The position numbers were made by a program, and so were the translations under genes. A DNA stretch of 64,000 bases from Nitrospira sp. GTDB taxonomy: Bacteria > Nitrospirota > Nitrospiria > Nitrospirales > Nitrospiraceae. Under the pieces are notes generated by a model that was not told the DNA's origin, did no database searches, and was given only the letters and a program-made list of their open reading frames with translations. Below, one piece after another: positions 28,479 to 53,920 of the stretch (its first letter is position 1; each line of letters starts with the position of its first letter). The stretch lies in the NCBI GenBank assembly GCA_029194535.1, contig JARFXR010000001.1, positions 1,062,721 through 1,126,720 on the forward strand, written 5' to 3'.

Positions 28479-31400
28479 ATGTTTCCTCATCAACAAGAGG
28501 TTCGTGTTCCTACCCGCATTCTCGGCGCAATGGCAGCCGCGACCCTACTCTGGGTCCCGCTCGCGTCCGCTGAGAGTTCCCCGTCGCACGTCGCGATGAA
28601 TCATCAGCTTCCCGCGTGGGCGGAGCAGCTGAAGGGACAGACCATTGTCGAAGACACGATGTCCGGGAAGGGAGATCGGGCCGCAATGGTCGAGCAGCAG
28701 CATCAGCGCGTCATGGAACATCTGGCTCAAGACCCGCAGATTCAGGGGATCAACACGGGCATGTACAATACCACGTCCATGATGCACCAGTATGGAGCCG
28801 GTGGTCAGGACATGCTCCTGGTTTCCGATCCACGAGTGGAGCCGGTTTCTACGACCGGAGGTGGAAAGTGTCCCGCGACTGCGCCGGTCAAGCAGTATAA
28901 CGTGTCAGCGATCAACGTCGAGATTACGCTCAACCAATGGCTCGATTTTTATCCTGGGTATATGTATGTCCTGGAGGAGAATCTCGACAAGGTCCGGGCG
29001 GAAGAGAACAAGAACAAAGAAGCTCGTGAAAAGGAGGGCTTCGATCCGGGCGCCGTCATTCCTGGCGTGCAGGCGCAATGGATTCAACCGCTCGTCATTC
29101 GCGGCAATCAGGGCGACTGTGTCAAGATCAAGTTGGCCAACAAGCTGGAAGAGGGAGGGGGGCCGGTCAGCCTGCACATTCACGGATCCAGCATGGTCGT
29201 GAGCGCCACGGGTGCCGCGGCGACGACGACCAATCCCGACACGATCGTCGATGAAAAGAAGAGCGTCGATTTTGAGTGGTATATCCATCCCAGCACACAG
29301 GAAGGCGTCCGCCAGTTCCATACCTTCAGCCAGGATCGCGAATTGACCGTCATGGGCATGTTCGGCGCATTCGTGGTCGAGCCGAGAGGATCGAACTACC
29401 TCGAGGCGCTGGGCTCCGGAGACGCGACGCCTGCCAACAGCGGTTGGCAGGTCATGATCCAAAACGGCACCGGGCCGGACTTCCGCGAGTTCGTGCTGAT
29501 CTACCACGAGGTCGGTGACGAGGCGTTTCGGCCGGTCAACAAGAAGGGCGACTTCCTTCCTCAGCGCGACCCCTTGACCGACGCCTACCGTCCGGGCGGT
29601 CGGGCGATCAACTATCGCAGCGAGCCCTTCGGCATCAACAACATGCATGTGCAGCACGAATATTTTGGTTTCGAAGACGAGTCCATGGGGTATAGCTCCT
29701 ACACTTTCGGCGATCCATCCCCGACGATTCCCCGCTCCTATATGGGCGATCCCGCGAAGTTCCGGCTGGTCCACGGCGGTTCGGAGGTGTTCCATAGCCA
29801 CCACCCGCACGGAGGAACGATTCGGTGGCCGCGCAGCCCGCGGGCGATCGACGATATGAATCTTTGGGCCACGGCCGTCAACGGACCGGTCAAGTATCCG
29901 GTGATCCGCCATAAGACCGATCGCGTCGATGTCGAAGTCATCGGCCCGTCAGAGGCTCTTGACCTGGAGACGGAGTGCGGATCAGGGCTCTGCCAGCAGC
30001 TCGCCGGCGACTTCCTCTTCCATTGTCACGTGGCACATCATTATGTGGCAGGGATGTGGGGTTACTGGCGTGTGTACAACACGATCCAGCAGGGGGATTT
30101 GCGCAACGATGTCATGCCGGATTTGCGCGAACTCCCCGATCGCAAGGGCCGCATCAAGACTCCGATCTCGTCCGACAAGCTCATCGGCCAGACCGTCGAT
30201 TGGTTCGGCAGTCAGTTCAAGATCGTGGACAAGGGGAAGAGCAACTGGAAGGGGAATCCGGCCACGATTACGATCAAGGATTGGGTTGAAATGCAGCTCC
30301 CCACGGCCGGGAAGCCCGGGCACAAGGATGACGAGAAGGGCCAGATCGTCTCCTACGATGCGACCGTGCTCGATTGGATCTGGGAAGGCACTCGTGCCAT
30401 GAGCGAAAAGGAGAGCACGACCGATAACCCAAAGTATAAATCCACCCATCCCGGCAAGCGGCATCCGATCATGTTCGAACCGCTGACGGGAAAAGTGGCG
30501 TGGCCCCATCTGACCCCCCATTTCGGCAAGCGCGTCATGTTCTCGCCGAACCATGTCGGGGCGCCCTGGTTGGAGATGATCCGCCGGGATGCCGGCGGCG
30601 ATGAAAGTGTCGATCAAGCGGTGCCGGGTGAAAATGGCAACTGGAGTCTCTGTCCGGTCAACGCTGGACGCAAGAACTACAACGTCCATTTCATTAAGCT
30701 GCCCATCAAGATCGCCAAGGCTCAGGGGAAGGAGCCGCCGGTCGTGGATCCGAACGGGTTGATCTACGTGCTCCACGAAGAAGAAGCGGCAATCAGGGCG
30801 AACGACGACTTGAAGTATCCGCTGGTCGTTCGCGGCAACATCTACGATTGCGTGGACTGGACGTTGACCAGCGAGTGGGACGACGACGACTACACGAATT
30901 TCCAGTCCTCGAAGATCAATACTCACTGGCACTTTCTGCAGTTCGACAACCAGGCATCGGACGGCGTGATCACGGGCTTCTCCTATGAACAGTCCGTGCG
31001 CCCGTTCACGATGCTGGAAAAGAAAAACGCCAAGGGCCTTCCGGCCCCGATGAACACCGTGTTATCGGCCGCCGCCAAAAAGGGGACGACCACCCTCACG
31101 GTGAAGAATGCTAAGCAGTACCATGTGGGCATTCTGATTCTCGTGGGCGCCGACAATGTGAAAGGCAACGAGGTTTCCCGCATCAAGGCCATCAACGGCA
31201 ACACCATTACGCTGGCCAAGGGACTCAAGAACGATCATCCGGCGAACGATATCGTGACGGTGGAATTCGTCCGGCAGCGGTTCTGGGTCGATGCGGACGT
31301 GGGGACCGTGTTCTGGCATGATCACGCGTTCGGCGCGACCACGTGGCCGCACGGCGGATTCGGCACGTTTATCGCCGAGCCGGTCGGCTCGACGTATCAC

Positions 31401-33323
31401 GATCCCAAGACCGGGAAGCTTGTCTGGAGCGGCCCGATTGCCGACATCCATACCAACGAGCCGGTGGGACACGGTGTGAATAACAGCTTCCGTGAACTGA
31501 TGGTGCAAGTGCACGATACGGTGCCGCATACCGTGAACATCGTGACGGCGGGCAATCCGCCGGGTCAGCCGGTCGAAGTAGCGCTGGAGGCGGGCAAGAC
31601 CGTCTCGTTCATGATGCCGGAGAAACTGTACATGACGCCGATGCCGTTCCTGAACGGCGGAACCCACACCACGGGAAGCGGCTTGAACTTCCGTGCGGGT
31701 CCGATCGCTCAGCGGTTGGCGACCAACCCCGATGTGTCGCAGGCGTTCAACAGCCAGATTCACGGGGATCCGTATACGCCGCTGCTGCGCGCCTATACGG
31801 GAGATACGATGGTGTTCAGGCTGTTGCATACGCTCATGAACGAGACGATGACCTGGACCCTCTCCGGTCACACCTTCTGGTCGGAGCGTTATGCGTCGGA
31901 TGCGAACCGTAAGAACTCGATCCATATCGGGATCGCCGAGCGGTACGACCTGGTCGTGCCGGAAGCGGGTGGCCCGCGGCACCTGGCCGGAGACTACATT
32001 CACTTTAACGGCCGGTCCTCGAAGTTCTCCGAAGGCGGTTGGGGCATCATTCGCGTGTACGACAAGGAGCAGGCTGATCTGAAGAAACTGCCGGCCGGCT
32101 TCTCGGTCAAGGGCGAGATTCCGAAGGCGTTACCGGTTTGCCCGGCCGATGCGCCGGTCAAGACGTTCAACGTCGTGGCGATGGATTATCCGTCCATGAA
32201 ATTCAACGCGAAGGCGCCCGAGTCGATCGAGGTAGACTTCGAGCGAAAGATTCAGATCACCAATCCCGAGGCTAAGATCTATGCCTTGGAGGAAGATGTC
32301 GCCAAGGTGTCCGGAGAAGCGCAACCGATGCCGCTGACGCTCCGCGTCAATGTCGGCGATTGCGTGAAGGTCAATCTGAAGAACAAGATGAAGGGCAGCA
32401 AGGCGTCTTTCTCGGCCATCGGGTTGGTCTTTGACCCGAAGGATTCGATGGGCGCCAATGTCGGCAACAACCCCGGCGATCAGACGATCGCCGCCGGCGG
32501 AGAGCGGACCTACACCTACTACGCGGATCCGTTCAACGGCGAGACCACGTCCCTGGTCTGGGACTGGGGCAACGTTATGACCAATCCTCGCAACGGTCTG
32601 TTCGGGGCGATCGTAGTCGGTCCGAAGGGTTCCAAGTATCGGGATCCCAAGACCGGCGCCGATCTGACGAACAAGAATGCCTGGGCGGCGGACGTGATCA
32701 TTGATCGTACCGTGCCGGGCAATGAGATGAGGGCAAACTATCGCGACGTCGCCCTGTTCTTCCAGGACGAAGACAACATCATCGGCACGAGCTTTATGCC
32801 GTATGTGCAGAACGTTGCGGGCCTCACGGGCATCAACTATCGGTCGGAGCCCTATAAGTATCGCGAGGAGCAAGGCTGTTCCCTGGGCAAGGTCTTCCAG
32901 CCCTGCAAAGTGGACAAGCCGGAAGATCCTGCGACTCCGATCATCGAGTCACATGCCGGAGATCCTGTTCGGATCCATGTCATCGGAGCCAATAACGAAC
33001 AGAACGGCATGTTCAGCATCGAGAAACATGAATGGCCGATTGAGCCCTTCATGCGGGGCGCCGACCAAATCAGCGTGGTCGAGTTCTCCGGTTCGGAAGT
33101 GCTGGATGCGTTCGTGTCGTCGGCGGGCGGACCCTATCGCCTGCCCGGGGACTACGTGTACAGCAACCAACGGTTGCCGTACTCCCAGTCCGGTCAGTGG
33201 GGCTACCTCCGCGTGTTGCCGTCCGGCGACCAGAGGTTGTTGCCGTTGGCCGGTGCCGGTGCCGGGATGAAGAGTGCATCGCTGGAACAGGCAGCGCACG
33301 CCATTCCGGTCGCGACGAAATAA
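28479..33323 (+). CDS. giant multicopper-oxidase-like protein, three tandem units
   Basis: 1614 residues, exported (signal peptide to about residue 30). It consists of three units of paired cupredoxin domains. Unit 1 keeps copper ligands: HIH (233-235), a His-rich HSHHPH (439-444) and HCHVAHH (His515, Cys516, His517, His521) with Met526, a full type 1 site. Unit 2 keeps HWH (816-818) and HDH (947-949), but its closing segment near 1171 reads GDYIHFNGRSSKF instead of GDFLFHCHVAHH, so the type 1 Cys is gone. Unit 3 closes with GDYVYSNQRLPYSQ near 1557 and lacks nearly all ligands. Likely a periplasmic or surface oxidase of metals or small molecules; the substrate is unknown. Has its own promoter and is ended by two hairpins. 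Confidence 0.88.
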   Translation: MFPHQQEVRVPTRILGAMAAATLLWVPLASAESSPSHVAMNHQLPAWAEQLKGQTIVEDTMSGKGDRAAMVEQQHQRVMEHLAQDPQIQGINTGMYNTTSMMHQYGAGGQDMLLVSDPRVEPVSTTGGGKCPATAPVKQYNVSAINVEITLNQWLDFYPGYMYVLEENLDKVRAEENKNKEAREKEGFDPGAVIPGVQAQWIQPLVIRGNQGDCVKIKLANKLEEGGGPVSLHIHGSSMVVSATGAAATTTNPDTIVDEKKSVDFEWYIHPSTQEGVRQFHTFSQDRELTVMGMFGAFVVEPRGSNYLEALGSGDATPANSGWQVMIQNGTGPDFREFVLIYHEVGDEAFRPVNKKGDFLPQRDPLTDAYRPGGRAINYRSEPFGINNMHVQHEYFGFEDESMGYSSYTFGDPSPTIPRSYMGDPAKFRLVHGGSEVFHSHHPHGGTIRWPRSPRAIDDMNLWATAVNGPVKYPVIRHKTDRVDVEVIGPSEALDLETECGSGLCQQLAGDFLFHCHVAHHYVAGMWGYWRVYNTIQQGDLRNDVMPDLRELPDRKGRIKTPISSDKLIGQTVDWFGSQFKIVDKGKSNWKGNPATITIKDWVEMQLPTAGKPGHKDDEKGQIVSYDATVLDWIWEGTRAMSEKESTTDNPKYKSTHPGKRHPIMFEPLTGKVAWPHLTPHFGKRVMFSPNHVGAPWLEMIRRDAGGDESVDQAVPGENGNWSLCPVNAGRKNYNVHFIKLPIKIAKAQGKEPPVVDPNGLIYVLHEEEAAIRANDDLKYPLVVRGNIYDCVDWTLTSEWDDDDYTNFQSSKINTHWHFLQFDNQASDGVITGFSYEQSVRPFTMLEKKNAKGLPAPMNTVLSAAAKKGTTTLTVKNAKQYHVGILILVGADNVKGNEVSRIKAINGNTITLAKGLKNDHPANDIVTVEFVRQRFWVDADVGTVFWHDHAFGATTWPHGGFGTFIAEPVGSTYHDPKTGKLVWSGPIADIHTNEPVGHGVNNSFRELMVQVHDTVPHTVNIVTAGNPPGQPVEVALEAGKTVSFMMPEKLYMTPMPFLNGGTHTTGSGLNFRAGPIAQRLATNPDVSQAFNSQIHGDPYTPLLRAYTGDTMVFRLLHTLMNETMTWTLSGHTFWSERYASDANRKNSIHIGIAERYDLVVPEAGGPRHLAGDYIHFNGRSSKFSEGGWGIIRVYDKEQADLKKLPAGFSVKGEIPKALPVCPADAPVKTFNVVAMDYPSMKFNAKAPESIEVDFERKIQITNPEAKIYALEEDVAKVSGEAQPMPLTLRVNVGDCVKVNLKNKMKGSKASFSAIGLVFDPKDSMGANVGNNPGDQTIAAGGERTYTYYADPFNGETTSLVWDWGNVMTNPRNGLFGAIVVGPKGSKYRDPKTGADLTNKNAWAADVIIDRTVPGNEMRANYRDVALFFQDEDNIIGTSFMPYVQNVAGLTGINYRSEPYKYREEQGCSLGKVFQPCKVDKPEDPATPIIESHAGDPVRIHVIGANNEQNGMFSIEKHEWPIEPFMRGADQISVVEFSGSEVLDAFVSSAGGPYRLPGDYVYSNQRLPYSQSGQWGYLRVLPSGDQRLLPLAGAGAGMKSASLEQAAHAIPVATK

Positions 33324-33333
33324 GAACCGAATC

Positions 33334-33370
33334 CCACACGGGTCTTGCCTTTCAGGCAAGACCCGTGTGG
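33334..33370 (+). terminator. perfect 17-bp hairpin after the multicopper oxidase gene
   Basis: 33334-33350 pairs perfectly with 33354-33370 around loop TTC. It lies 11 bases after the stop codon but is followed by TTCAGTTCC rather than a T run, so it may be an mRNA 3'-end protector that works with the true terminator 25 bases further on. Confidence 0.7.
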
Positions 33371-33394
33371 TTCAGTTCCTCTGCAGTTGGATGT

Positions 33395-33427
33395 GGGGGA
33401 GGCTGTAGAGCCTCCCCCTTTTTCTTT
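33395..33427 (+). terminator. rho-independent terminator
   Basis: A 10-bp GC-rich stem (33395-33404 with 33409-33418), loop GTAG, then TTTTTCTTT. Second of two hairpins closing the multicopper oxidase transcript; the cupredoxin gene starts about 90 bases downstream. Confidence 0.88.
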
Positions 33428-33515
33428 GGTGAGGCCTTTTGGTACGATGGAAAAGTTGTTACCTGGCTCTCGCTGTATCATCAGCGTCAAAGGACTCATC
33501 TTTCTGGAGGCTGGA

Positions 33516-34427
33516 ATGAAACGGGTTGCGCTGCTAGGGCTCTGGTGGTGGCTGACGATCGGGGCCTCCTTCGCTTGGGCTTACGAAGAGGTGCCGGTCG
33601 TCGATGGAGGTACCGTCGCAGGGAAGATCCGGATTACCGCGGGGAAAGCCACGCCCAAGGGATTCAACTTGATCACATTTCCCGATCCCGTCTATTGCGG
33701 TCGGATTTCAACCGGAACGGGCTGGCGTATTCTGAAGGAATTTGATGTGGCGGCCGACGGAGGGCTCAAGGACGTTGTCGTGTGGCTGTCTGACGTCGCA
33801 AAGGGGAAACCGTTCAAGTTCGAACCTCAAACGATCGAGGCCAGAGATTGCCGGTTTCTCCCGTTTGTGACGGTGGTCCAGGATCGGGCGGATGTGATCA
33901 TCATGAACATGGATCCGGTGATGCACGATATCCAGGCCTACGAGACGTCTCATCTGGGTCCCCGTGTGCTGTTCAACACTCCGCTCCCCATGAATCCTCA
34001 TCATAAGCGCAAGGTTGGAGCCGATTCCCATGAGCATCTCGCCGGTGAACCGGTGAAGGAGACGATTCACATGACGAAAGGCCGGAAGTTTTTCGTCATG
34101 CAGTGCGGATTCCATGCGTACATGGAAAGCTGGGGGCTGGCCATCGAGAACCCCTATTATCACGTGACTGGAACAGACGGCACGTTTTCATTGGCCGACG
34201 TGCCGGCCGGGGAGTATGTGCTGACGGCATGGCATCCAGGCGTCGGGACCGTATTGGAGAAGAAGATCACAGTTTCCGCGAAGGAGACGGTGCAGGCCGA
34301 TTTTCTGTTCGAATCCCCCAAGGGACGGCGAAGCGCGCACGAAATCGAGGAGAACCCGCACTTCGGGCTGCAAGCGTTGGGGAAGGCGGTCGACATCCGG
34401 CCCACGCTTGAGCTGCAGGTCCCCTGA
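33516..34427 (+). CDS. secreted cupredoxin / carboxypeptidase-regulatory-like protein, copy A
   Basis: 303 residues from ATG 33516, behind CTGGAGG; the open frame reaches further upstream without a ribosome site. Signal peptide to about residue 24. A beta domain begins GGTVAGKIRITAG; a cupredoxin-type copper site follows with His137 (DPVMHDIQ) and CGFHAYM (Cys197, His200, Met203), spaced as in amicyanin; a carboxypeptidase-regulatory-like sandwich ends the protein (GTFSLADVPAGEYVLTAWHPG). It is a close paralog of the next gene and shares KGFNLITFPDP and YCGRIS with it. Probably a periplasmic copper electron carrier near the multicopper oxidase. Sometimes annotated as methylamine-utilisation-like. 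Confidence 0.8.
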   Translation: MKRVALLGLWWWLTIGASFAWAYEEVPVVDGGTVAGKIRITAGKATPKGFNLITFPDPVYCGRISTGTGWRILKEFDVAADGGLKDVVVWLSDVAKGKPFKFEPQTIEARDCRFLPFVTVVQDRADVIIMNMDPVMHDIQAYETSHLGPRVLFNTPLPMNPHHKRKVGADSHEHLAGEPVKETIHMTKGRKFFVMQCGFHAYMESWGLAIENPYYHVTGTDGTFSLADVPAGEYVLTAWHPGVGTVLEKKITVSAKETVQADFLFESPKGRRSAHEIEENPHFGLQALGKAVDIRPTLELQVP

Positions 34428-34454
34428 ATGATCGGACGCCAGGGAGAAAGGGGA

Positions 34455-35384
34455 ATGATGATGCGACACCGATTCGCAGGTGTGCTGTTCGCAAGTTTGG
34501 GGGTCCTGTGCGGTTGGCCTGCTGGCCTCGGCTTTTCCTATGACGTCGTTGACGTGCAGCATGCGGGAACCATCGAGGGCACGGTGGTCCTCGACGGACC
34601 GGTTCCCGAGCCGAAGGGGTTCAACCTCATCACCTTTCCGGACCCGGCCTACTGCGGACGCATCTCCAACGGGCAGGGATGGCGGCTGCTGTACGACTTC
34701 GTCGTGGGCGAGAACAACGGGCTGAAGGATGCGATTGTCTTGCTGGAAGGTGTGGAGGCCGGTAAACCCTTTGAGGTCTCCGTACCATTGATCGAGGCGC
34801 GCGACTGCATGTTCAAACCCTTCATGACGATCGTGCGCAATGGGCATGCTGTCGAAGTGATCAACATGGATCCAGTGATGCACGACATTCAAGGATACGA
34901 GACCTCCATCGAGGCTGGGGCCCGAGTCCTGTTTAATACGCCGTTGGTCATGAATCACCAGCACCGTCGCGGTGATCTCCATGCCATCCACAATCATGCC
35001 CCCGGCAAGTCTCTCGTCGGACCGGTGTATCTCAACAGGGGGCGCAGGACGTTTTACATGCAATGTGGGTTTCATGCCTACATGGAGAGTTGGGCCATGG
35101 CGGTGAACAATCCCTATTACACGTTGACGGACGGTAATGGGAAGTTCACGATCGGAGACGTTCCTCCCGGCACGTATCAACTGGTTGTGTGGCATCCGCA
35201 GACGGGGCCCGGCACCGCGAAGATGGTGACCGTGCAAGCGGACGGCACGGTCGTTGAACATCTGTCCCTGCCGGCGCCCAAAGGGAATCGCACTTCCTAT
35301 AAGGTCATGCACAACCCCCGTTTCGGACCGGAATCGCTCGGCTATTCCGTGGAGATCAACCCGCTTGTCGAACACCAGCACTAG
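34455..35384 (+). CDS. secreted cupredoxin / carboxypeptidase-regulatory-like protein, copy B
   Basis: 309 residues from ATG 34455, behind AGAAAGGGGA; an in-frame ATG at 34428 touches the stop of copy A. Same layout as copy A: signal peptide, a beta strand block with GTIEGTVVLDG, the shared KGFNLITFPDP, His143 (DPVMHDIQ) and CGFHAYM (Cys204, His207, Met210), and the closing GKFTIGDVPPGTYQLVVWHP sandwich. A tandem duplicate of copy A: the copper ligands are all kept, the loop between them differs (HNHAPGKS, extra His). Co-transcribed with copy A. Confidence 0.8.
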   Translation: MMMRHRFAGVLFASLGVLCGWPAGLGFSYDVVDVQHAGTIEGTVVLDGPVPEPKGFNLITFPDPAYCGRISNGQGWRLLYDFVVGENNGLKDAIVLLEGVEAGKPFEVSVPLIEARDCMFKPFMTIVRNGHAVEVINMDPVMHDIQGYETSIEAGARVLFNTPLVMNHQHRRGDLHAIHNHAPGKSLVGPVYLNRGRRTFYMQCGFHAYMESWAMAVNNPYYTLTDGNGKFTIGDVPPGTYQLVVWHPQTGPGTAKMVTVQADGTVVEHLSLPAPKGNRTSYKVMHNPRFGPESLGYSVEINPLVEHQH

Positions 35385-37827: not shown

Positions 37828-38622
37828 ATGAAGAGTGCGTTATCAGTCGTGTTCGGTGTGGCAGCCGTCGCATTTATCGCGACGCCTGTCACCTCATTTG
37901 CCGGTGGCACCATCGCCGGCAAGGTCACCTATGCCGGGAAATCCGAGCAGAAGGAGTTTCTCTTCTCGAAGTTCCCGAACCCCAAGTTCTGTCCGAAGCA
38001 TCCCAATAAGACCTTGATGGACGGGGACAAGCGGTTCCTGAAGACCATCGAGGTCGGCAAGGATGGCGGATTGAAGAACGCCGTCGTGGCGGTCACCGAT
38101 ATTGAAGACAAGGCCTTCATGGATGGGTTCGCGGGAGCTGAAGTCACCGCGGCCTTCTGCGAATTTCTGCCGTTCAGCGGCGTGGTTGTGAACAATCGCC
38201 CCTTCAAGGTTGAAAATACCGATGCGGATCCGGATGATCCCAAGTCGACGGCCGGTGTGCTGCACAATCCCCATAGCTTCACGGTGAAGGGCTCGACGTC
38301 GGCGACCGGTTTCAACATCGGTCTTGCCAAGAAGGGCGACAAACTCGACAAGCCGGTGACCTTCCGCGGTGGTGCCGAGAAGGAAGGCTACTATCGGCTG
38401 CAGTGCGACCAACATGAGTTCATGCAGTCCTTCTTCCTTCCCGTGTCGAATGCGCATTATGCCGTGGTGAAGGAAGACGGTTCGTTTGAGCTCAAGGATG
38501 TGCCGGCCGGTAAGCACAAAGTCACAGCCTGGCATCCGTTCGTCGGTAAGGGCAAGAAGGTGGAGTTCGAGATCGAAGTTCCGGAAGGCGGGACGGCGAA
38601 TCTGAAGGCCGAACTCAAGTAA
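37828..38622 (+). CDS. secreted cupredoxin / carboxypeptidase-regulatory-like protein, copy C
   Basis: 264 residues with a clear signal peptide (AVAFIATPVTSFAGG). Same overall plan as copies A and B but more diverged: GTIAGKVTYAGK, then a Lys-rich block with KFCPKHPNKTL, a candidate upstream His (146 or 149, in LHNPHSFTV), the copper loop CDQHEFM (Cys193, His196, Met199) and the closing SFELKDVPAGKHKVTAWHPF. Has its own promoter and terminator and a very strong ribosome site, so probably the most highly expressed of the three. A periplasmic copper carrier is the best guess; the electron donor and acceptor are unknown. Confidence 0.82.
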   Translation: MKSALSVVFGVAAVAFIATPVTSFAGGTIAGKVTYAGKSEQKEFLFSKFPNPKFCPKHPNKTLMDGDKRFLKTIEVGKDGGLKNAVVAVTDIEDKAFMDGFAGAEVTAAFCEFLPFSGVVVNNRPFKVENTDADPDDPKSTAGVLHNPHSFTVKGSTSATGFNIGLAKKGDKLDKPVTFRGGAEKEGYYRLQCDQHEFMQSFFLPVSNAHYAVVKEDGSFELKDVPAGKHKVTAWHPFVGKGKKVEFEIEVPEGGTANLKAELK

Positions 38623-41232: not shown

Positions 41233-42285
41233 ATGTTGCATCGGATGGCATTACGGGTTTTGCCCAGTCTCAGTCTTGCCGTGACGGAGGACACGATCCG
41301 CAAGAAAAAGCGGATCGTGATGTTTGTGCCGGGGATGGTCGCTTTCGTGTGCCACCGACTGGCTAAGCACGTCCTCCCGATGTCCGAGCCATGGGTACTG
41401 CTCCTGCTCAGCGGCCTGTTGGGACTCGCGACCGCCCTGATTGCCTATCGGGTCGGCCGCGCCTGCGACTGGCGGAGGATGAGTGCACAGGACGGAGCAG
41501 TTCTGCTGAGTTGGATAGCCGGTTGGATCGGCTTTGTCTATGCCGTACAGCTGTCCCTTTTGGTCCTCGCGTTGCTCTGGCTCGTGGGATACGACTATCT
41601 GCAACATCCGGACGGACCGGCGATGATGGCGATGATCATTCCCTCCACCGCCGTGGCTCGCGATGCTTTTGAGATCGGTCATGTCAGGAGCATGTTGCTG
41701 ATGGGGCGTCCCTTCGCCACCTTTCCGAACGGGGCCTCTCTCCGGGAATTGGTCGGTTCCCGATCCGCACCGTGGGCATCCTGGGCTGCGACAGGTTTGA
41801 TCGCCGGTGCTCTCGGCGCCTCGCTCGGCCATCTTATGCACACGCAGCAGGCCGTCGTGATGGTGCAGTTGGCTGCAGTGACCCTTGTCGGAGGGACGAT
41901 CGCGTTGTGCGCCTATTTCAGCGGAATGCGACCGCAGGTGCCATGGACGTCCGGTTTGCTGTCCACCAAGGCCAGCGAGTCGCTGAAGTACTGGTGGTGG
42001 CCCGGTATGGCCTTCGCTTCTACCTACTATCTGGTCGCCGCAGGCGTCGTCATCTTTGTGGCGAGAGAGCCGGGTGTTCCAACATGGTACGCGGCGGCGG
42101 GTGGTGGAATGGTTGCCGCGCTCATGGGCTTGTACGGTTATTACTTGGGCCATCGGCGCCATATCGAGGATCAATTGGCTCCAGAGGTCAGTACGGCGAT
42201 GCTCCGCTGTCCGTTTGTCATGGGCATATTGGGAAAGTCCGGCGCGGGCGGCCGTTTGGCCGCGTCATCAACATCAAAGGTCTGA
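41233..42285 (+). CDS. multi-pass membrane protein of unknown family
   Basis: 350 residues from ATG 41233; the frame is open a few codons earlier. Seven or eight hydrophobic helices, beginning with a soluble RKKKRIVMFVP stretch. Cytoplasmic-side segments contain several His and Cys (FVCHRLAKHVL, GHLMHTQQAV, YYLGHRRHIEDQ), which could bind heme or metal. I do not recognise the family. It ends four bases before the ATG of bd-like oxidase 1 and is probably part of that transcript and perhaps of that complex. Confidence 0.6.
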   Translation: MLHRMALRVLPSLSLAVTEDTIRKKKRIVMFVPGMVAFVCHRLAKHVLPMSEPWVLLLLSGLLGLATALIAYRVGRACDWRRMSAQDGAVLLSWIAGWIGFVYAVQLSLLVLALLWLVGYDYLQHPDGPAMMAMIIPSTAVARDAFEIGHVRSMLLMGRPFATFPNGASLRELVGSRSAPWASWAATGLIAGALGASLGHLMHTQQAVVMVQLAAVTLVGGTIALCAYFSGMRPQVPWTSGLLSTKASESLKYWWWPGMAFASTYYLVAAGVVIFVAREPGVPTWYAAAGGGMVAALMGLYGYYLGHRRHIEDQLAPEVSTAMLRCPFVMGILGKSGAGGRLAASSTSKV

Positions 42286-42289
42286 CGCG

Positions 42290-44161
42290 ATGGTTGGTTC
42301 AACGACAAGCTTTCTACGCGTGGTAATGCCGCTGTTCTTCATCGGTCTTCTCACTGTCGCAGGGGGGTGGGTGGGCATAACTCCCCCGGCGGCGGCTGAT
42401 GGCGGCGCCGATATCTATTTCAAGACGGAGGGTGTGCCGCAAGGGCCGCCGGCTCCGACGCCTCACGAGACGGTCTACTCACGGATCGGTTCGATGGACA
42501 GTCGATTGCTGGTGTGGTTTGTGACGCAACAGCACACCTATTTCGGAGGATTCGTTCTCGCGCTGCCCTTGTTCTGCGCCTTGCTCGAATTCATCGGACT
42601 CATTACGAAAAATCCTTCCTCGTCGCTCCGGTACGACGGGTTGGCAAGGGACTTGGCCAAGGTCGCGCTCTTGGCCCTGTCGGTTACGGCCGTGGTCGGA
42701 AGCCTCATGCTGGGCCTGTTCATCTGGTTCTACCCGAGTTTCATGAAGTACATGGGGGGAACCTTCAAGGATTTCATGCCCGCCTATGCCATTGTCTTCC
42801 TCGGCGAATCACTGTTGCTGATTCTCTATTACTACAGTTGGAATCGGATGGCGGAGCCGGGGTTGAAATGGGTCCATGCGGCAATCGGCATTCTGACGAA
42901 TATATTCGGGACCGCTCTGCTGTTGCTGGCCAATGCCTGGTCCGCATTCATGATGGCACCGGCCGGGGTCGATTCGGCGGGACGGTTCTTGGGCAATGGC
43001 TGGCACCTCTTGCATTCCGCATTGTGGAATCCTCTGAATGTCCATCGATTCCTCGCGGACATCATGTCCGGAGGAGCCGTCGTGCTCGCCTACGCGTGCT
43101 ATCGGTTCTTCACGAGCAAGACCGACGGAGAGCGGGCGTACTTCGATTGGGTCGGCTACATCTTTCTCTTCGTCACCGTCTGCGCCTTGCTTCCCATGCC
43201 GATCGCCGGCTACTGGCTGATGCGCTCCGTCTATGCCTTCAGCCAAAGTATGGGCGTAACGATGATGGGCGGGTTGCTCACCTGGTTGTTCGTCGTGCAG
43301 GCGCTCCTCATCGGCGCGCTCTTTCTGGGTGTGAACTACTACATCTGGCAGGGCATGGCCCGGATCAAAGGAGGGGAGCGGTATCAGCCCTACTATCAGA
43401 TTTTGCTCGGTGCGCTGACGCTCGCGCTTTTCGTGTGGTTGACGCCCCATACCGTCTTGATGTCGGCGGGCGAACTCAAGGCTATGGGAGGAGCCCAGCA
43501 TCCCGTTGTCGGGAATTATGGCGTCATGTCGGCCAAGAACGGTGCGATCAACGTCCTGATTCTTCTTACAACGCTCAGCTTTCTGTACTACCGACGGGCC
43601 AATCGTACGATGACCGTTTCCTGGGTCAATGCGGGAAATATCGTGATTGGCCTGCTGTTTGCGGTGGGGTTCATCAATGTGATTTGGCTTTCACTGTACG
43701 GCTTCTATCTGCCGGCGAAAATACGCGTTGGTCTATCGGCCCCACAGGCCGCGACGACCCTGACCGTGATTCTTGCGTCCGTGTTGATCAACCGCGCCAT
43801 GCTCAAGCATGCGATCGTCCATGGACCGGTTCAATGGGGCAAGATTCCGGTCCGCGGCATGGTCGGCCTCTTCGGGCTGGCAGCGGCGTTCACGTGGGTG
43901 ATGGGCCTCATGGGCTACATCCGTTCATCAGGACGCTTGTCATGGCATGTAACCGACGTGATGGCCGATGTGTCACCGTGGGCGTTCACCCCGGATCTCG
44001 AGTTTGCGGCGAAAATGGTCACGCTCAACATGGTGGTGTTTTGGGGGGCCGTGTTTGCCCTGTTCTGGATGTGTCAGCGCGGTCAACGGGAAGCGTTCGG
44101 AGAAGAGTTTGACGAAGAGAAATCGCCGACACTGGCTCCCATTCCTTCTCAGGAGGGGTGA
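42290..44161 (+). CDS. cytochrome bd-like oxidase subunit 1, long type (oxidase 1)
   Basis: 623 residues from ATG 42290 (upstream frame is inside the previous gene). Signal-like first helix, then the loop DIYFKTEGVPQGPPAPTP and about 13-14 membrane helices. Heme-ligand His82 lies in QQHTYFGGFVLALP; other conserved blocks are LWNPLNVHRFLAD, PIAGYWLMRSVYAFSQ, TPHTVLMSAGELKAMGG and QHPVVGNYGVMSAKNG. The Q-loop signature of classical CydA (GRQPW) is absent. This matches the Nitrospira type of bd-like oxidase in which extra helices and possible additional metal ligands suggest electrons come from cytochrome c, not quinol. No CydB is next to it. It is paralogous to the gene at 47704. Confidence 0.85.
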   Translation: MVGSTTSFLRVVMPLFFIGLLTVAGGWVGITPPAAADGGADIYFKTEGVPQGPPAPTPHETVYSRIGSMDSRLLVWFVTQQHTYFGGFVLALPLFCALLEFIGLITKNPSSSLRYDGLARDLAKVALLALSVTAVVGSLMLGLFIWFYPSFMKYMGGTFKDFMPAYAIVFLGESLLLILYYYSWNRMAEPGLKWVHAAIGILTNIFGTALLLLANAWSAFMMAPAGVDSAGRFLGNGWHLLHSALWNPLNVHRFLADIMSGGAVVLAYACYRFFTSKTDGERAYFDWVGYIFLFVTVCALLPMPIAGYWLMRSVYAFSQSMGVTMMGGLLTWLFVVQALLIGALFLGVNYYIWQGMARIKGGERYQPYYQILLGALTLALFVWLTPHTVLMSAGELKAMGGAQHPVVGNYGVMSAKNGAINVLILLTTLSFLYYRRANRTMTVSWVNAGNIVIGLLFAVGFINVIWLSLYGFYLPAKIRVGLSAPQAATTLTVILASVLINRAMLKHAIVHGPVQWGKIPVRGMVGLFGLAAAFTWVMGLMGYIRSSGRLSWHVTDVMADVSPWAFTPDLEFAAKMVTLNMVVFWGAVFALFWMCQRGQREAFGEEFDEEKSPTLAPIPSQEG

Positions 44162-45267: not shown

Positions 45268-46185
45268 ATGGAAAACAGAGGCGTGCTCATTGGATCGATC
45301 ATTTTCGTGTTCGGCTCCTTCGCGCTCATGATCGGCATGATGCTCTGGGAGTCGAATAAGGCCTATAAGATGAAAGAACTGGCTCAGTCTATTAAGACTG
45401 AAAGTCGGCCGACTGAGAGCGCCGGCCCGACACAGGACTACTCCATGTACAAGACGAGAATCGGTGATGAAGGACGGGAGATGGTGCACATCCCCGAGGG
45501 ACCGTTTTCCATGGGGAGTAACGATGGAGATCCAGACGAGGCTCCGGAGCACCAGGTGTTCCTGAAGGGATTCTACCTTGATCGCAAGGAGGTCACGCAA
45601 GACGAATATGCCCGCTTCGCTAAAATGACAAGACGGCCGATGCCGAGGATCGAAGTGTTCGAAGACGATCAGTCGAAGCTGCTGAAACCAGAGTTCGCCG
45701 CGATGAGCGTGTCCTGGGACGACGCCTATGCGTACTGCAAATGGGCAGGGAAACGGTTGCCGAGCGAAGCGGAATGGGAGAAGGCAGGGCGCGGGGAAGG
45801 TAAGCGAAAGTATCCATGGGGAGAGGCCTTCGTCACGGGGCGGGCCAATGTGGACGGAAGTGAAGACGGGTATCGGTATTTGGCGCCGCCCGGTTCGTTT
45901 GATGCGGGCCGAAGTCCCTATGGTCTGCACGATATGACAGGCAACGTGGCGGAATGGGTCGCCGACACCTATGATGAGAAGTATTACAAGAAATCCCCGT
46001 ATCGAGATCCCAAGGGGCCAGAAAGCGGAGATTTGAAAGTCGTCCGTGGGGGGTCATGGAGAGAAACCGAACATAATACGAGATTGTCGAAACGCTTCGC
46101 CGCCAAACACTGGCGGACCGACATCACGATCGGTATTCGTTGCGCCAGCGATGCCGAGGCCGGAGGAAACTCGTCGGCGTCATAG
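45268..46185 (+). CDS. membrane-anchored sulfatase-modifying-factor-like protein 1 (no catalytic Cys)
   Basis: 305 residues. One N-terminal membrane helix (GSIIFVFGSFALMIGMML) then a linker and an FGE-sulfatase (formylglycine-generating) fold: MVHIPEGPFSMGSNDGD, YLDRKEVTQDEYARF, VSWDDAYAYCKWAGKRLPSE, YGLHDMTGNVAEWV and VVRGGSWRE. True FGE enzymes have a Cys pair in the segment after the GGS; here that segment reads TRLSKRFAAKHWRTD with no Cys, and only the terminal GIRCA is kept. It is therefore likely a periplasmic binding or structural protein, as in many bacterial members. It is followed by a second copy nine bases on. Confidence 0.85.
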   Translation: MENRGVLIGSIIFVFGSFALMIGMMLWESNKAYKMKELAQSIKTESRPTESAGPTQDYSMYKTRIGDEGREMVHIPEGPFSMGSNDGDPDEAPEHQVFLKGFYLDRKEVTQDEYARFAKMTRRPMPRIEVFEDDQSKLLKPEFAAMSVSWDDAYAYCKWAGKRLPSEAEWEKAGRGEGKRKYPWGEAFVTGRANVDGSEDGYRYLAPPGSFDAGRSPYGLHDMTGNVAEWVADTYDEKYYKKSPYRDPKGPESGDLKVVRGGSWRETEHNTRLSKRFAAKHWRTDITIGIRCASDAEAGGNSSAS

Positions 46186-46193
46186 CCCCGGAC

Positions 46194-47096
46194 ATGCTCG
46201 AAACCAAATTCAAGGTCGCCTTCCTGCTCACCGTGATTGCCTTTGCTGCATTGCCCATTATGGGCATTCTTCGCGGGACATCTCTAACGCCGTTAGAAGA
46301 TTCCTCTCTTCAGACTGAGTCGACTCCTGAGCCGTTGGAGGTCGATGCCAAGGAAGATCCCATCGGCGAAGACATGGTCGCAATTCCCGCCGGGCCGTTC
46401 TTGAGAGGAACGACGGACGGGGGATTTGACGAGTTGCCTCAGCGCACGATCGCGCTGGATGGCTTCAAGATCGATCGCTACGAAGTTACAAACTATCAGT
46501 ACCAGCAGTTCGTGGCGGCCACGGGTCATCGTAAAGCTGGACCGCCTTCGCGTTATGCCAAGAGCATCGGCAAGATGCGCGGGACCAATCAGCCGGTCGT
46601 GTACGTCTCCTGGGATGATGCAGGCGAATATTGTCGTTGGAAGGGCAAGCGATTGCCGACTGAAGCGGAATGGGAAAAGGCTATGCGGGGAACCGACGGA
46701 CGGCTCTGGCCATGGGGCGATCGTGAGCAGCCGAACGGAGCCAACTGGGCAAGGGTGAATGACGGGTATGACGTGTCAGCACGGGTAGGATCCTTCTCCT
46801 TGGACAAGAGCCCATATGGGGTCATGGACGGCGCCGGAAACGTGATGGAGTGGGTGGAGGACTGGTATGCGGAGACGTATTACCAAGATTCTTCTCAGCA
46901 GAATCCCAGGAGCCCGGAATATGGCACCTATCGTGTCTTGCGAGGGGGGGCCTATACGACCACAGGCCACGACTTGCGTATTACCAGCCGAAGCAAGATG
47001 GTGCCGGACTTTCGTGATGAGACTATCGGATTTCGGTGCGCGATTTCGGACCAGAAAACAGCTGGAAAAAATGATGGAACTAGCGGAAAGAATTAA
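46194..47096 (+). CDS. membrane-anchored sulfatase-modifying-factor-like protein 2 (no catalytic Cys)
   Basis: 300 residues from ATG 46194 (frame open from 46140). An N-terminal hydrophobic helix (VAFLLTVIAFAALPIMG), then the same fold as the previous gene: MVAIPAGPFLRGTTDGG, IDRYEVTNYQYQQF, VSWDDAGEYCRWKGKRLPTE, YGVMDGAGNVMEWV, RVLRGGAY. The segment that would hold the active cysteines is DLRITSRSKMVPDF, so again no enzyme. A tandem paralog diverged from the first; together they flank the small-membrane-protein block of oxidase 2. The 3' end overlaps the minus-strand small gene by four bases. Confidence 0.83.
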   Translation: MLETKFKVAFLLTVIAFAALPIMGILRGTSLTPLEDSSLQTESTPEPLEVDAKEDPIGEDMVAIPAGPFLRGTTDGGFDELPQRTIALDGFKIDRYEVTNYQYQQFVAATGHRKAGPPSRYAKSIGKMRGTNQPVVYVSWDDAGEYCRWKGKRLPTEAEWEKAMRGTDGRLWPWGDREQPNGANWARVNDGYDVSARVGSFSLDKSPYGVMDGAGNVMEWVEDWYAETYYQDSSQQNPRSPEYGTYRVLRGGAYTTTGHDLRITSRSKMVPDFRDETIGFRCAISDQKTAGKNDGTSGKN

Positions 47097-47628: not shown

Positions 47629-47703
47629 GGTTCTCACTGCGATTCCGTGAATGTCTGGAACTTTGCCATGAGTCTTTGTTGTATTGCATCAAGGAGGTAT
47701 CCC

Positions 47704-49620
47704 ATGGGTCTTGCAACCCGAAAGAAAGTATTTTCAATCATGGCGCTGTGCGCGATGGTTGGCCTCCTCCTGTTTCCCATCGTCATGTCGCTGCCGACAC
47801 CGGCATCCGGTGAAGAGGCTCCAGCGGCCGACGGGGCAAAGAAGGAGGGGGACAAGGTCGAGAAGGGACGCGATGTCTACTACAAGACCGAAGGTATTGT
47901 GGTCGGCGCTCCGGCACCCAAGACGACAGATGGTCCGAAGGACTATCCGCGGTACAATTTCGAAAGCCGCGTGTTGCTCTGGTTCGCGAATCAGCAACAT
48001 CTCTACTATGGCAGCTTCGTCTTAGCTGTTCCGATCTTCTGTATGGTCATCGAGTTCATGGGGGTGGTGACGAAGGACAAGGCACTTGCAAAGCGCTACG
48101 ATCAACTTGCCTATGACTTCATCAAGATCAGTTTGACGGCCTATTCGTTGACGGCGATTTTGGGCGGCATCTTGATCTTCACGTTCTTGACTCTCTATCC
48201 GGCATTTTTCGGTTACCTCTCCAGTATCTTCCGTCCTGTCATGCACATCTACGCACTGATGTTCGTGGCCGAGAGTGGAACGCTCTACATTTACTATTAT
48301 GGCTGGGACAAGATGAAGGAAGGATTTCTCAAGTGGATCCACTTGAGCATGTCCGTCATTCTGAACGTTATCGGCACATTGCTCATGTTCCTGGCCAATT
48401 CTTGGATCGGCTTCATGATGTCACCTGCCGGTGTCGACGAACAGGGTCGCTTCCTCGGTAACATCTGGCACGTGATCCATACCGCTCTGTGGAACCCGCT
48501 TAACGTGCATCGAATTCTTGGCAACATGGCTTTCGGCGGGGGTGTCGTTGCGGCCTACGCGGCCTATAAGTTCCTGGCTGCCAAAACCGAGGAAGACCGC
48601 GCTCACTATGACTGGATGGGTTATATCGCGATGGCCCTCGGCGTGGCGTTCCTGATCCCGCTGCCCTTCGCCGGCTACTGGCTCATGCGCGAAGTGTATG
48701 CGTATCGGCAGCAAATGGGCATTACGCTCATGGGCGGCCTGTTGGCGTGGCTGTTCATCATTCAGGCGACCATGATCGGCATTCTATTCCTGAGCACCAA
48801 CTACTATCTGTGGCAGGCGATGGGTCGGATGCGAGGGGCCGAAAAATATCAGCGATACATCAAGTATCTCGTATTTCTGCTCGCGGTCGGGTTTTTGGTG
48901 TTCATCACTCCGCACACGATGGTCATGACGCCCGCGGAGCTTAAAGCGATGGGTGGTCAACAGCATCCCGTGTTGGGTAACTACGGTGTCATGTCGGCGA
49001 AAAACGGTGGTATCAATGTCATCATCACCACGACCGTCTTGAGCTTCGTCTGGTACATGCGTGGCAACAAAGTTTCGACGGTTTCCTGGGCGAAGTTCGG
49101 CAACATTTTCATGGGCGTGTTCTTCGCGTGTGCGTACGTCAACATCGTTTGGTTGGCGATCTATGGGTACTACATTCCGGCCAACGTGCGCGTCGGCCTG
49201 TCGGTACCTCAGGTGGCCACGACGTTGTCCTGTCTGTTCTTCATGTTCGCGCTGAACAGTGTGATGATGAAGGGAGCCAAGCAGATGGGGCCGATCGAGT
49301 GGGGCAAGATCTCTGCGCGATCCCAGTACGCGTTGATCATGCTGGCAACCGCGTTCACCTGGATGATGGGACTGATGGGCTACATCCGCTCTTCCGTCCG
49401 CCTCTTCTGGCACGTCAACGAGATTATGCGCGATAACTCCCCTTGGGCCTATACACATACGGTGGGTTTTGCCGCCAACATGATTTCGTTCAATGTGCTG
49501 TTTTTCTGGATCAGTATCCTCTTCGTCTTTTGGCTCGGTAGCTTGGCGGCGAAGAAGGTACCGGTTGAAGCCAAGGCTGGAGTTCCGGGAAGCGCGCCGC
49601 AGCCGGCGGGCAGCCACTAA
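47704..49620 (+). CDS. cytochrome bd-like oxidase subunit 1, long type (oxidase 2)
   Basis: 638 residues from ATG 47704 behind AAGGAGG. Signal-like helix, a charged loop with DVYYKTEGIVVGAPAPKT, then about 14 membrane helices. Heme-ligand His99 lies in QQHLYYGSFVLAVP. Blocks shared with oxidase 1: LWNPLNVHRILGN, PFAGYWLMREVYAY, TPHTMVMTPAELKAMGG, QHPVLGNYGVMSAKNG and WMMGLMGYIRSS. The Q-loop of classical CydA is absent. Preceded by two 40-residue membrane proteins and followed by three cytochrome genes, so the natural electron donor is probably cytochrome c. This is the better-equipped of the two oxidase copies. Confidence 0.88.
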   Translation: MGLATRKKVFSIMALCAMVGLLLFPIVMSLPTPASGEEAPAADGAKKEGDKVEKGRDVYYKTEGIVVGAPAPKTTDGPKDYPRYNFESRVLLWFANQQHLYYGSFVLAVPIFCMVIEFMGVVTKDKALAKRYDQLAYDFIKISLTAYSLTAILGGILIFTFLTLYPAFFGYLSSIFRPVMHIYALMFVAESGTLYIYYYGWDKMKEGFLKWIHLSMSVILNVIGTLLMFLANSWIGFMMSPAGVDEQGRFLGNIWHVIHTALWNPLNVHRILGNMAFGGGVVAAYAAYKFLAAKTEEDRAHYDWMGYIAMALGVAFLIPLPFAGYWLMREVYAYRQQMGITLMGGLLAWLFIIQATMIGILFLSTNYYLWQAMGRMRGAEKYQRYIKYLVFLLAVGFLVFITPHTMVMTPAELKAMGGQQHPVLGNYGVMSAKNGGINVIITTTVLSFVWYMRGNKVSTVSWAKFGNIFMGVFFACAYVNIVWLAIYGYYIPANVRVGLSVPQVATTLSCLFFMFALNSVMMKGAKQMGPIEWGKISARSQYALIMLATAFTWMMGLMGYIRSSVRLFWHVNEIMRDNSPWAYTHTVGFAANMISFNVLFFWISILFVFWLGSLAAKKVPVEAKAGVPGSAPQPAGSH

Positions 49621-49704: not shown

Positions 49705-51015
49705 GTGGGTAATCTGATTAACGAGGCCCTTTCGATGGGGTGGATGGTCCTGGCCATTCTCGTCGGGCTGCTCATTTACTTCCAGGTCTCCATCCCCGAT
49801 CCCGCGGCAAAGAAGCGGGCGGTATTCAAGACTTTTATCGGCATCGTCGCCGCGTTCTTAATGTTCATCGCGATCGCGAATTACAAGAACAATTTTTACG
49901 GAGAGAATCGGTTGTTGCCGGTCTCCCTCGTCATGATCACGGCGACGACGTTTGTGATGGCTCTGTATTTCACCAATCTTGCTGCGTTGCTGAAGATCGG
50001 TGGATTCATGTTCTTCGTGGCGGCCTTCCTCTCCGGGTACGGAAACTGGTTGCCTCAAGTAGAAGGAGGATTTCCTCCCAAGGAAGAGAAGTTGGACTTT
50101 AGTTCGATGACACCTCAGCAGTTGGCCGACGAGGGCGAGAAGATCATTTTCGGAGGCATCGGTCAGAACAAGGTCCAGGGTGCGATCGGTAAGGGACAAT
50201 GTCCTCTGTGCCATGCATTCCATGCGGGAATGTTGGGTGAACGGGCGCCTAACCTTCTCGGTCTTCCGGAGCGTGCGGGCAAAGAGCGACTTGAAGACCC
50301 GAAGTATTCCAAGGGCAATCCTTCTAAGCGGGAGTATGCGGATAAAGAAGCCTTTCCCGGATCGGGAACAGCGGAGAATGGCCAGGAGTACATTGCCGAG
50401 TCTCATTCATGCCCCAGTTGCTATGTCGTTGCAGGGTACGGTGTGAAGGGAACCAACGACAAAGAGAGCCCGATGCCCAAGATTCACAAGCCACCGATCT
50501 CGCTCTCGCTGCCTGAACTGGCGGCCGTGGATACGTGGTTATATGTCCGTGAAGGACGTGAGTCGCCTTCTTTTGAGGAAATCACCAAGTCCTATGAGAA
50601 GTTCATTCCGGAAGCTGAGCGTCCGAAAATGCAAGAGGACAAGCCGGCGGCCGCAAGCGCGTTATTGGCCGACGGGTCCGAACCGGTAGACCAGATTTTT
50701 GCCAAGGCGCAGTGCGTCGTCTGTCACACGATTCCTGGTATACCCGGTGCCACCGGTACCCAGGGACCCAAGCTTGAAGAGGGGACGAACGCACCGACCA
50801 GAATCAAAGATCCTGGCTACAAGGGCGCCGCGCACAGCACTCCCGAGTACATCATGGAATCGATCGTCGAGCCCAGCACCTACGTGGTGAAGGGATTCCC
50901 GGACAACCTGATGCCGAAGGTTTTCGGCCAGAAGCTCAGCGCGGGGGCGCTGAAGAAGATTGTCGACTACCTGTCGCAGGTGAAGGCGGGAGCACCGCCA
51001 CCCAAGATTTCCTAA
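49705..51015 (+). CDS. membrane-bound diheme c-type cytochrome (oxidase 2 operon)
   Basis: 436 residues from GTG 49705 behind AGGAGG. The N-terminal ~110 residues form three or four membrane helices (GWMVLAILVGLLIYF; TFIGIVAAFLMFIAI; VMITATTFVMALYF; IGGFMFFVAAFLSGYG). Two cytochrome c domains follow with CPLCH (Cys166, Cys169, His170) and CVVCH (Cys337, Cys340, His341); Met in SPMPKIH and LMPKVFG are likely distal ligands. A third Cys pair, CPSCY at 236-240, sits where the second domain has EPSTY, beside the Met loop, so it is not a heme site but may be a disulfide or other metal site. Likely electron-delivery subunit for oxidase 2. Confidence 0.88.
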   Translation: MGNLINEALSMGWMVLAILVGLLIYFQVSIPDPAAKKRAVFKTFIGIVAAFLMFIAIANYKNNFYGENRLLPVSLVMITATTFVMALYFTNLAALLKIGGFMFFVAAFLSGYGNWLPQVEGGFPPKEEKLDFSSMTPQQLADEGEKIIFGGIGQNKVQGAIGKGQCPLCHAFHAGMLGERAPNLLGLPERAGKERLEDPKYSKGNPSKREYADKEAFPGSGTAENGQEYIAESHSCPSCYVVAGYGVKGTNDKESPMPKIHKPPISLSLPELAAVDTWLYVREGRESPSFEEITKSYEKFIPEAERPKMQEDKPAAASALLADGSEPVDQIFAKAQCVVCHTIPGIPGATGTQGPKLEEGTNAPTRIKDPGYKGAAHSTPEYIMESIVEPSTYVVKGFPDNLMPKVFGQKLSAGALKKIVDYLSQVKAGAPPPKIS

Positions 51016-52095: not shown

Positions 52096-52144
52096 TAGGC
52101 CGAAGGCTTTTTCGATAACCTGGACTTAGATGAAGAGGATAAAC

Positions 52145-53920
52145 ATGAGAAAGAGTGCAAGTCAGAAGCTAGGAGTGGCTGCCGCTGCCGCCTTCGGCAT
52201 CATCCTGACTTCCGGGCAGATCGGCATTCCGGTAGTCGGGGCCGAAGGGCTACCGGAGGGATTCAAGAAGGGGGACCTCGCCCCAGAACCCTCCGCCGAG
52301 ATGATCGAAGCGGGAAAGCGGGTCTACTTTACAAAGTGTGTGTGGTGTCACGGAGTCGATGGAGCGGGTGATGGCCCTGGTGCAGACCGTCTGTGGCCTC
52401 GTCCTCGCAATTTCAATCAAGGCACCTTTAAGATTCGTCACACGGCGAGCGGCGAGCTCCCCTTGTTCGACGCAAAGAAGCCCATAGCAGGTCAAAACGA
52501 TTTGTTTGAGACCGTCACGCACGGCCTCCCCGGTTCGGCCATGCCCTCGTGGGAAGGTATCCTCACCGAGGAACAGCGACTTCAGGTGCTCTCCTTCGTC
52601 ACAACTCAACTCGTAAAGGATCGGAAGTTCACGGACAAACAGTCGGAGACGCAGACGATCCTACAGCTCACTGAGCTGAAGGCCAAACCGGCGAACGCAG
52701 AGAGCGTGAAGCGTGGCTCCGAGCTGGTTGTCGAAAGGAAGTGCATTGAATGTCACGGAACGGAAGGACGAGGTGACGGAAACGCGTTCAATCTGAAAGA
52801 CGACTGGGGCTTTTCCATTCAGCCTGCGGACTGGCACAAGTGTTGGAACTTCCGCGGCAGCCGGCAGGATCCCTACAACGTGAAGAACATTTTCCGAACT
52901 TTCTCTACCGGAGTGAACGGGACTCCGATGCCGTCATTCGCGGATAACACCACGGTCGATGAGCGGTGGGACATTGCGAATTTTGTGAATTCGTTATGTG
53001 AGCGGGATGCCGAAGGCAATCCGCTCCCGATCGATCCTCTGACCGACAAGCCGAAGATCAATTTCGTTGTGCCTGCTAATCTCGTCGAAGGGGAGATTCC
53101 GGCCGATCTTGAGAATGAAGCGTGGCAGAAGGCCCCTCGCCGGTATGTCGCGATGGGTGGACAGATCACCCACAAGCCTCGGAACTTCGTCAATCGGATC
53201 GACGATATTTGGGTGCGGGCTCTGTACAACGATAAGTCACTCGTGTATTTGCTGGAGTGGGACGATCGGACCAAGAGCGTTGCGGAAGGCAAGCTGCCTT
53301 GGGCTCCCACGCAGGTGAACATCGATGTTAAGGAGCAGGATCCCAAAACTGGTGAGGAAGGGTCTATTGCAGCCAATCAGAATAACTACAAAGTGTACAA
53401 CGATGCCATCGCGATTGAGCATCCGGTGAAGTGGAAGGAGCTGCCAGCTCCGATCAAGCCGCGCTACCTGTTCGGGACGAACGACCAGTTCCCGGTCGAT
53501 ATCGTCAAGTGGGAAGCGGATGGGTCTATCCGAGCGTTCAAGGGAACGGGGTGGGACAAGGATTTTGAAGAGCGCGATACCTATGAGGAAAGTCTTAAGG
53601 TCCTCAAGGCTGAGTGGAAAAATGGTCGGTGGTACGTCATGATCCAACGTCCCCTGGGTAATAAGAAGGATCAGGACTACGATGAGGATACGTTCTTTGA
53701 GGTCGGCCAATATGTTCCCACGGTGTTTTTTGCCTGGGACGGACACAATGGGGATGCAGGACGTAAGATGGCCGTCTCGGCTTTCTTCTATACGTTCCTG
53801 AATCCTCCGATTCCGCGAGAGACCTATATCTATCCAGCCGTTATTGCGTTTGGAATCGTACTGCTGGAAGGGTGGGTGATGACGCGGCGGGCAAACAAGA
53901 GGAAAGGGAAGACCCTCTAA
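52145..53920 (+). CDS. diheme cytochrome c with ethylbenzene-dehydrogenase-like heme domain
   Basis: 591 residues from ATG 52145 (an ATG at 52130 is in frame, but GAGG falls correctly for 52145). Signal peptide to about residue 35; two cytochrome c domains with CVWCH (Cys65, Cys68, His69) and CIECH (Cys200, Cys203, His204); from about 300 to 555 a beta-sandwich of the EB_dh/DMSO-reductase heme-b-binding type (NAWQKAPRRYVAMGG, LVYLLEWDDRTKS, WYVMIQRPLG, VFFAWDGHNGDAG); and a final membrane helix (PAVIAFGIVLLEGWV). The heme domain type is that of NxrC, the subunit passing electrons from nitrite oxidoreductase. Here the domain is fused to two hemes c, so a tri-heme relay is likely. Last gene of the operon. 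Confidence 0.87.
   Translation: MRKSASQKLGVAAAAAFGIILTSGQIGIPVVGAEGLPEGFKKGDLAPEPSAEMIEAGKRVYFTKCVWCHGVDGAGDGPGADRLWPRPRNFNQGTFKIRHTASGELPLFDAKKPIAGQNDLFETVTHGLPGSAMPSWEGILTEEQRLQVLSFVTTQLVKDRKFTDKQSETQTILQLTELKAKPANAESVKRGSELVVERKCIECHGTEGRGDGNAFNLKDDWGFSIQPADWHKCWNFRGSRQDPYNVKNIFRTFSTGVNGTPMPSFADNTTVDERWDIANFVNSLCERDAEGNPLPIDPLTDKPKINFVVPANLVEGEIPADLENEAWQKAPRRYVAMGGQITHKPRNFVNRIDDIWVRALYNDKSLVYLLEWDDRTKSVAEGKLPWAPTQVNIDVKEQDPKTGEEGSIAANQNNYKVYNDAIAIEHPVKWKELPAPIKPRYLFGTNDQFPVDIVKWEADGSIRAFKGTGWDKDFEERDTYEESLKVLKAEWKNGRWYVMIQRPLGNKKDQDYDEDTFFEVGQYVPTVFFAWDGHNGDAGRKMAVSAFFYTFLNPPIPRETYIYPAVIAFGIVLLEGWVMTRRANKRKGKTL

Follow-up and report, generated by a model that had tools for sequence, protein, structure and literature searches.

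The 64,000-nucleotide stretch of DNA analysed here (the window) belongs to a Nitrospira-like genome of 99.9% completeness (G000) and contains a 1614-aa open reading frame (28479..33323, +) with an ATG start and no internal stop. The product (P0001) matches the Pfam family Cu-oxidase_3 (E 1.6e-11), finds its closest solved structure by sequence in Bacillus MnxG (9bxa, E 2.7e-82) and begins with a likely signal peptide that can be read from residues 1–31 (...WVPLASA/ES; 28479..28571, +); the whole gene is accordingly described as encoding a putatively secreted six-cupredoxin multicopper oxidase. Downstream on the same strand, domain matches and alignments identify three putative blue-copper proteins, encoded by the next gene (33345..34427, +), by 34428..35384 (+; H152, C213, H216, M219) and by 37828..38622 (+), all of them secreted-looking, with a CarboxypepD_reg-like C-terminus and a conserved His ... 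CxxHxxM pattern. A gene group similar to the N. moscoviensis cluster bd-like_3/bd-like_4/alt_NxrC_2 (PMC6606698) occupies 42056–44161, 47647–49620, 49705–51015 and 52130–53920; it encodes two subunits of cytochrome bd-like oxidases, one cytochrome c and one diheme c/ethylbenzene-dehydrogenase-like (EB_dh) protein. Adjoining genes for formylglycine-generating-enzyme-like proteins (PF03781) lie at 45268–46185 and 46140–47096, and the same family also occurs near the oxidase copies L092 and L093.

For a repeat test, the oxidase was cut into six stretches and their profiles were compared pairwise. D1, D3 and D5 matched one another, as did D2, D4 and D6 (E 4.5e-32 to 3.7e-42), and odd domains scored no more than weakly against even ones. 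This resolves the protein into three two-domain units and six cupredoxins and bears out the three-unit repeat and the ceruloplasmin/MnxG-like size (1614 aa, six domains) proposed in a preliminary description of this DNA. Unit 1 comprises D1 (residues 132–310; 28872..29408, +), placed by its profile match to D3 and D5 and carrying a partial His set (H233, H235 and H281), and D2 (residues 314–548; 29418..30122, +), to which alignment and profiles assign the type 1 (T1) copper and half of the trinuclear cluster. Unit 2 comprises D3 (residues 724–975; 30648..31403, +), assigned the other trinuclear half from profiles, and D4 (residues 982–1202; 31422..32084, +), where the T1 Cys occurs in no row; unit 3 comprises D5 (residues 1216–1385; 32124..32633, +), which lacks a ligand set in alignments and profiles, and D6 (residues 1395–1590; 32661..33248, +), which lacks the T1 Cys and has a conserved H1517. 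The equivalent closing segments of the three units lie where they had been reported, GDFLFHCHVAHH at residue 510, GDYIHFNGRSSKF at residue 1171 and GDYVYSNQRLPYSQ at residue 1557.

Canonical multicopper oxidases carry two HxH motifs in one domain and HxxHxH together with HCHxxxHxxxxM in another. All four motifs are present in the window protein and were followed through a Nitrospira-group alignment of 88 rows, in which the window gene is counted twice (P0001 and L081). In D2, HSHHPH (29793..29810, +) would supply H439 to the T1 site and H442 and H444 to the trinuclear cluster (87–88 of 88 rows), and HCHVAHHYVAGM (30021..30056, +) would supply H515 and H517 to the cluster and C516, H521 and M526 to the T1 site (87 of 87 readable rows); the D3 motifs HWH (H816, H818; 30924..30932, +) and HDH (H947, H949; 31317..31325, +) are each present in 88/88 rows. 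Among the 88 rows, the exceptions are an H439P substitution in one and unresolved X in another, and because the ligands are otherwise invariant the observed pattern is not a product of chance. Read from the sequence, the D2 and D3 ligands make up a single complete canonical set, with His, Cys, His and Met for one T1 site and eight His, four per domain, for the trinuclear cluster, and we infer that about four Cu would be bound per chain, with a trinuclear cluster at the D2/D3 interface that is common to units 1 and 2. The preliminary description had rightly placed the only T1 site in unit 1 (HCHxxxHxxxxM), HWH (816–818) and HDH (947–949) without a type 1 Cys in unit 2, and almost no ligands in unit 3, but it omitted the HxxHxH of unit 1 (439–444) and overlooked that the unit 2 motifs complete the site of unit 1; its odd metal count gives way to one canonical site with four coppers expected.

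Among the far relatives aligned, HxxHxH occurs in all and the full D2/D3 set is found in Streptomyces, Priestia, Haladaptatus, Halalkalicoccus, Hymenobacter and Microvirga relatives; in the same alignment a Rubrobacter relative has Phe at the M526 position and a Pseudonocardia row lacks HCH and HDH. These comparisons bear on the earlier suggestion that the protein is a degenerating tandem repeat, with a gradient of decay from unit 1 to unit 3. The T1 cysteines are indeed missing from units 2 and 3, but the active-site ligands of D2 and D3 are fixed, units 1 and 2 make one complete site, and the T1 Cys is absent from D4 and D6 in all 88 Nitrospira-group rows and in every aligned far relative, across phyla. 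Since the same D2/D3 layout occurs in Bacillus-type MnxG and in haloarchaeal and other bacterial relatives, we reject decay along the repeat and regard a degenerating protein with an odd copper count as extremely improbable. The two outcomes that the preliminary description had named as contrary to its own account, a complete T1 site in unit 2 or 3 and fewer than six domains, were both looked for and neither was found. The Nitrospira group conserves eleven Cys, of which C516 is the T1 ligand; from their positions the remaining ten look like structural pairs (131/214, 500/505, 725/791, 1221/1295 and 1467/1476).

Partial AlphaFold models were obtained for residues 118–1212 (mean pLDDT 64.9, pTM 0.66) and 985–1600 (mean pLDDT 71.8, pTM 0.79). 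For both, Foldseek returned MnxG 9bxa first (E 5.2e-41 for D1–D4 and 4.9e-39 for D4–D6), followed by ceruloplasmin and factors V/VIII. The D2 metal loops (construct 317–411, corresponding to residues 434–528) have confidence below 50 in the model, and the geometry of the site is therefore taken from sequence. Bacillus sp. PL-12 MnxG (9bxa; NF041487) shares with the window protein six cupredoxins, a T1 site in D2, trinuclear ligands in D2 and D3, and D4 and D6 without a T1 Cys; it differs in its length (1227 aa vs 1614 aa), in working with MnxE3F3 and in lacking the D3 insert, and the window protein has a long N-terminal extension by comparison. An Ala stands at the aligned second T1 His position of 9bxa, but the structure is titled as an H340A mutant, and the two proteins therefore do not differ naturally at this position. 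The D3 insert (about 85 residues, about 849–932; 31023..31274, +) is apparent from the spacing between the two D3 His motifs, which is 131–148 residues in the Nitrospira group, 116 in Streptomyces and 45–47 in Priestia, haloarchaeal, Hymenobacter and Microvirga relatives. Assignment to the MnxG equivalog (NF041487) was rejected (133.9 bits vs a curated cut-off of 3100), and a small gene just before Priestia mnxG, possibly MnxF, had no match in the window genome in one query run without a positive control.

One repeat of the protein resembles the two-domain (small) laccases, in which the trinuclear cluster lies between domains of neighbouring two-domain units; those laccases are separate trimeric chains with their own site in each chain. 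Bacterial six-domain oxidases with a trinuclear site at D2/D3, a mononuclear site in D2 only and residual ligands elsewhere were described by Vasin 2013 (PMC3600357), and the window protein, with six domains and ligands for a D2/D3 trinuclear and a D2-only mononuclear site, is MnxG-like in this sense. Its architecture is thus ordinary for the MnxG-like clan, and the D2/D3 plan is already published. Ceruloplasmin and hephaestin share the six-cupredoxin fold, but their trinuclear cluster lies between D1 and D6 and their T1 sites in D2, D4 and D6 (PMC3600357); a D1/D6 site of this type was rejected for the window protein, whose D6 lacks ligands, and the T1 Cys expected for ceruloplasmin-type sites in D4 and D6 is absent from both. 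According to PMC3600357, the Chlamydomonas Fox1-type ferroxidase also has its trinuclear cluster in D2/D3, with an additional mononuclear site in D4. In all likelihood, 28479–33323 encodes a multicopper oxidase of the MnxG clan that has six cupredoxin domains and is secreted, probably into the periplasm; it is predicted to be a four-copper, O2-reducing enzyme with T1 in D2 and trinuclear His in D2 and D3.

Three oxidase copies are present in the window genome, namely the window gene and paralogs of 74% and 68% identity, the former at a distance of about 5 kb from two genes that fit nxrAB, the first for a 1152-aa molybdopterin oxidoreductase with a TAT signal and the next for a 4Fe-4S protein. 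Identity to relatives reaches 96% in Nitrospira sp. CR1.3, 92% in N. moscoviensis and 88% in Candidatus N. defluvii, whose copy (L023) also has the same neighbours. Across a sample of 296 Nitrospirota genomes the oxidase was matched in 117, of which 114 belong to class Nitrospiria, and the unmatched genomes of this sample, apparently in kinship order, start outside that class; the gene appears to be present in all class Nitrospiria genomes sampled, with or without a close NXR. NxrA (E<=1e-200) was found in many family- and order-level genomes and in 0/15 matched class-level genomes, which indicates that the oxidase is not tied to a close NXR; these 15 carriers without an NXR match at that threshold make it less likely that the gene is there because of nitrite oxidation. 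Luecker 2013 (PMC3578206), in passages that give no ligand map, describes an MnxG-like multicopper oxidase that Nitrospina and Candidatus N. defluvii share with high conservation and whose gene is clustered with those for bd-like oxidases and electron carriers; this is very probably the same protein family as the window protein. The oxidase is not mentioned in the searched text of the N. moscoviensis transcript and N. marina proteome papers.

The blue-copper-like family that accompanies the oxidase conserves its H, C, H and M in at least 161 of 163 rows, and a member is encoded downstream on the same strand within 3 kb in 68 of the 82 copies with room for it, near-duplicate loci included. No blue-copper gene lies within 3 kb of some paralogs, including the one adjacent to nxrAB, and a PDB search with the neighbour protein gave weak matches alone, to its C-terminal fn3-like part.

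By analogy with established multicopper-oxidase chemistry, single electrons would enter at the T1 copper of D2 and pass through C516 and the flanking H515 and H517 to the three coppers clustered between D2 and D3, where O2 would be reduced to water, with D1, D4, D5 and D6 mainly serving to close and support the ring. O2 reduction at such a four-copper site is well supported by what is known of the family. Among possible donors we rank the adjacent putative blue-copper proteins first, Mn(II) second and Cu(I)/Fe(II) third. The proteins encoded directly downstream are put forward tentatively, adjacency alone being no sign of interaction; Mn(II) has a smaller chance of being the electron source, and the rest of the probability falls to small reductants such as Cu(I) and Fe(II).

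A metal oxidase was already proposed in the preliminary description, and we accept this as a plausible class. If the protein worked as a genuine Mn(II) oxidase in the manner of Bacillus MnxG, the oxidation would take place at the T1 site or close to it, and the Mn(III) would serve to counter superoxide or to form Mn oxide. By both sequence and fold the nearest solved relative is MnxG, Mn(III)-based protection against ROS is the role proposed in Luecker 2013 (PMC3578206), Nitrospira MAGs from Mn-removing sand filters carry an MnxG annotation (PMC12070406), and the gene is kept by class-level relatives without a close NXR. The score of 133.9 bits is nevertheless far from the equivalog cut-off of 3100, and PMC11995701 states that in the nitrifier families it covers Mn oxidation is still to be demonstrated and verified; on balance we consider this function unlikely, though with a real chance of being correct. 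Somewhat less probable is a role in copper tolerance or iron handling through the oxidation of Cu(I) or Fe(II). CueO, Fet3 and ceruloplasmin are Cu(I)/Fe(II) oxidases with such roles, the ligand set and six-domain fold of the window protein match ceruloplasmin-type proteins, and copper-export or CopC genes occur near some far relatives. The annotated neighbours in the window, however, include no copper efflux or iron uptake gene and are respiratory (bd-like oxidases and cytochromes c), a setting that, together with several conserved copies per genome, is unlike that of a metal-stress gene. Donation by the blue-copper-like proteins, which we prefer to both metal substrates, could be extended to a soluble periplasmic electron sink, formed by these proteins and the oxidase, in which cupredoxins would feed an O2 reductase that uses copper only and that would belong to the core respiratory equipment of class Nitrospiria and would not be a metal oxidase; in this full form the proposal is speculative and ranks below either metal oxidase. 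Nitrite-oxidising Nitrospira are among the commonest nitrifiers and their oxidase has been called variously a Mn oxidase or a ROS-defence protein, and its presence throughout the sampled class Nitrospiria, its independence from close NXR and its linkage to genes for a putative blue-copper carrier pose a sharper, testable question than whether or not it is a Mn oxidase.

The His residues of D1 (H233, H235 and H281) are kept in 46/46 rows of the window ortholog clade and lost in many paralogs; because about 58% of columns in that clade are invariant, their conservation counts for little as evidence. In class-level relatives, D1 has both HIH and HSH, four of four His. Together with H1517 of D6, the three D1 His could hold an extra, non-canonical metal site, a suggestion we hold more weakly than that of an electron sink.

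Several loci (L008, L018, L034 and L057) carry two divergent oxidase copies, and the oxidase of Nitrospira sp. UW-LDO-01 (L049:7836–12806) is divided into frames of 431 and 1225 aa, through either a true lesion or an assembly error. Copies from MAGs labelled Nitrosospira, Opitutales and Nitrosomonas (L022, L053, L064 and L076) fall inside the Nitrospira tree and are probably mis-binned contigs. Elsewhere in the window, a protein with a caspase-like peptidase domain (PF00656) is encoded on the reverse strand at 1102–3009.
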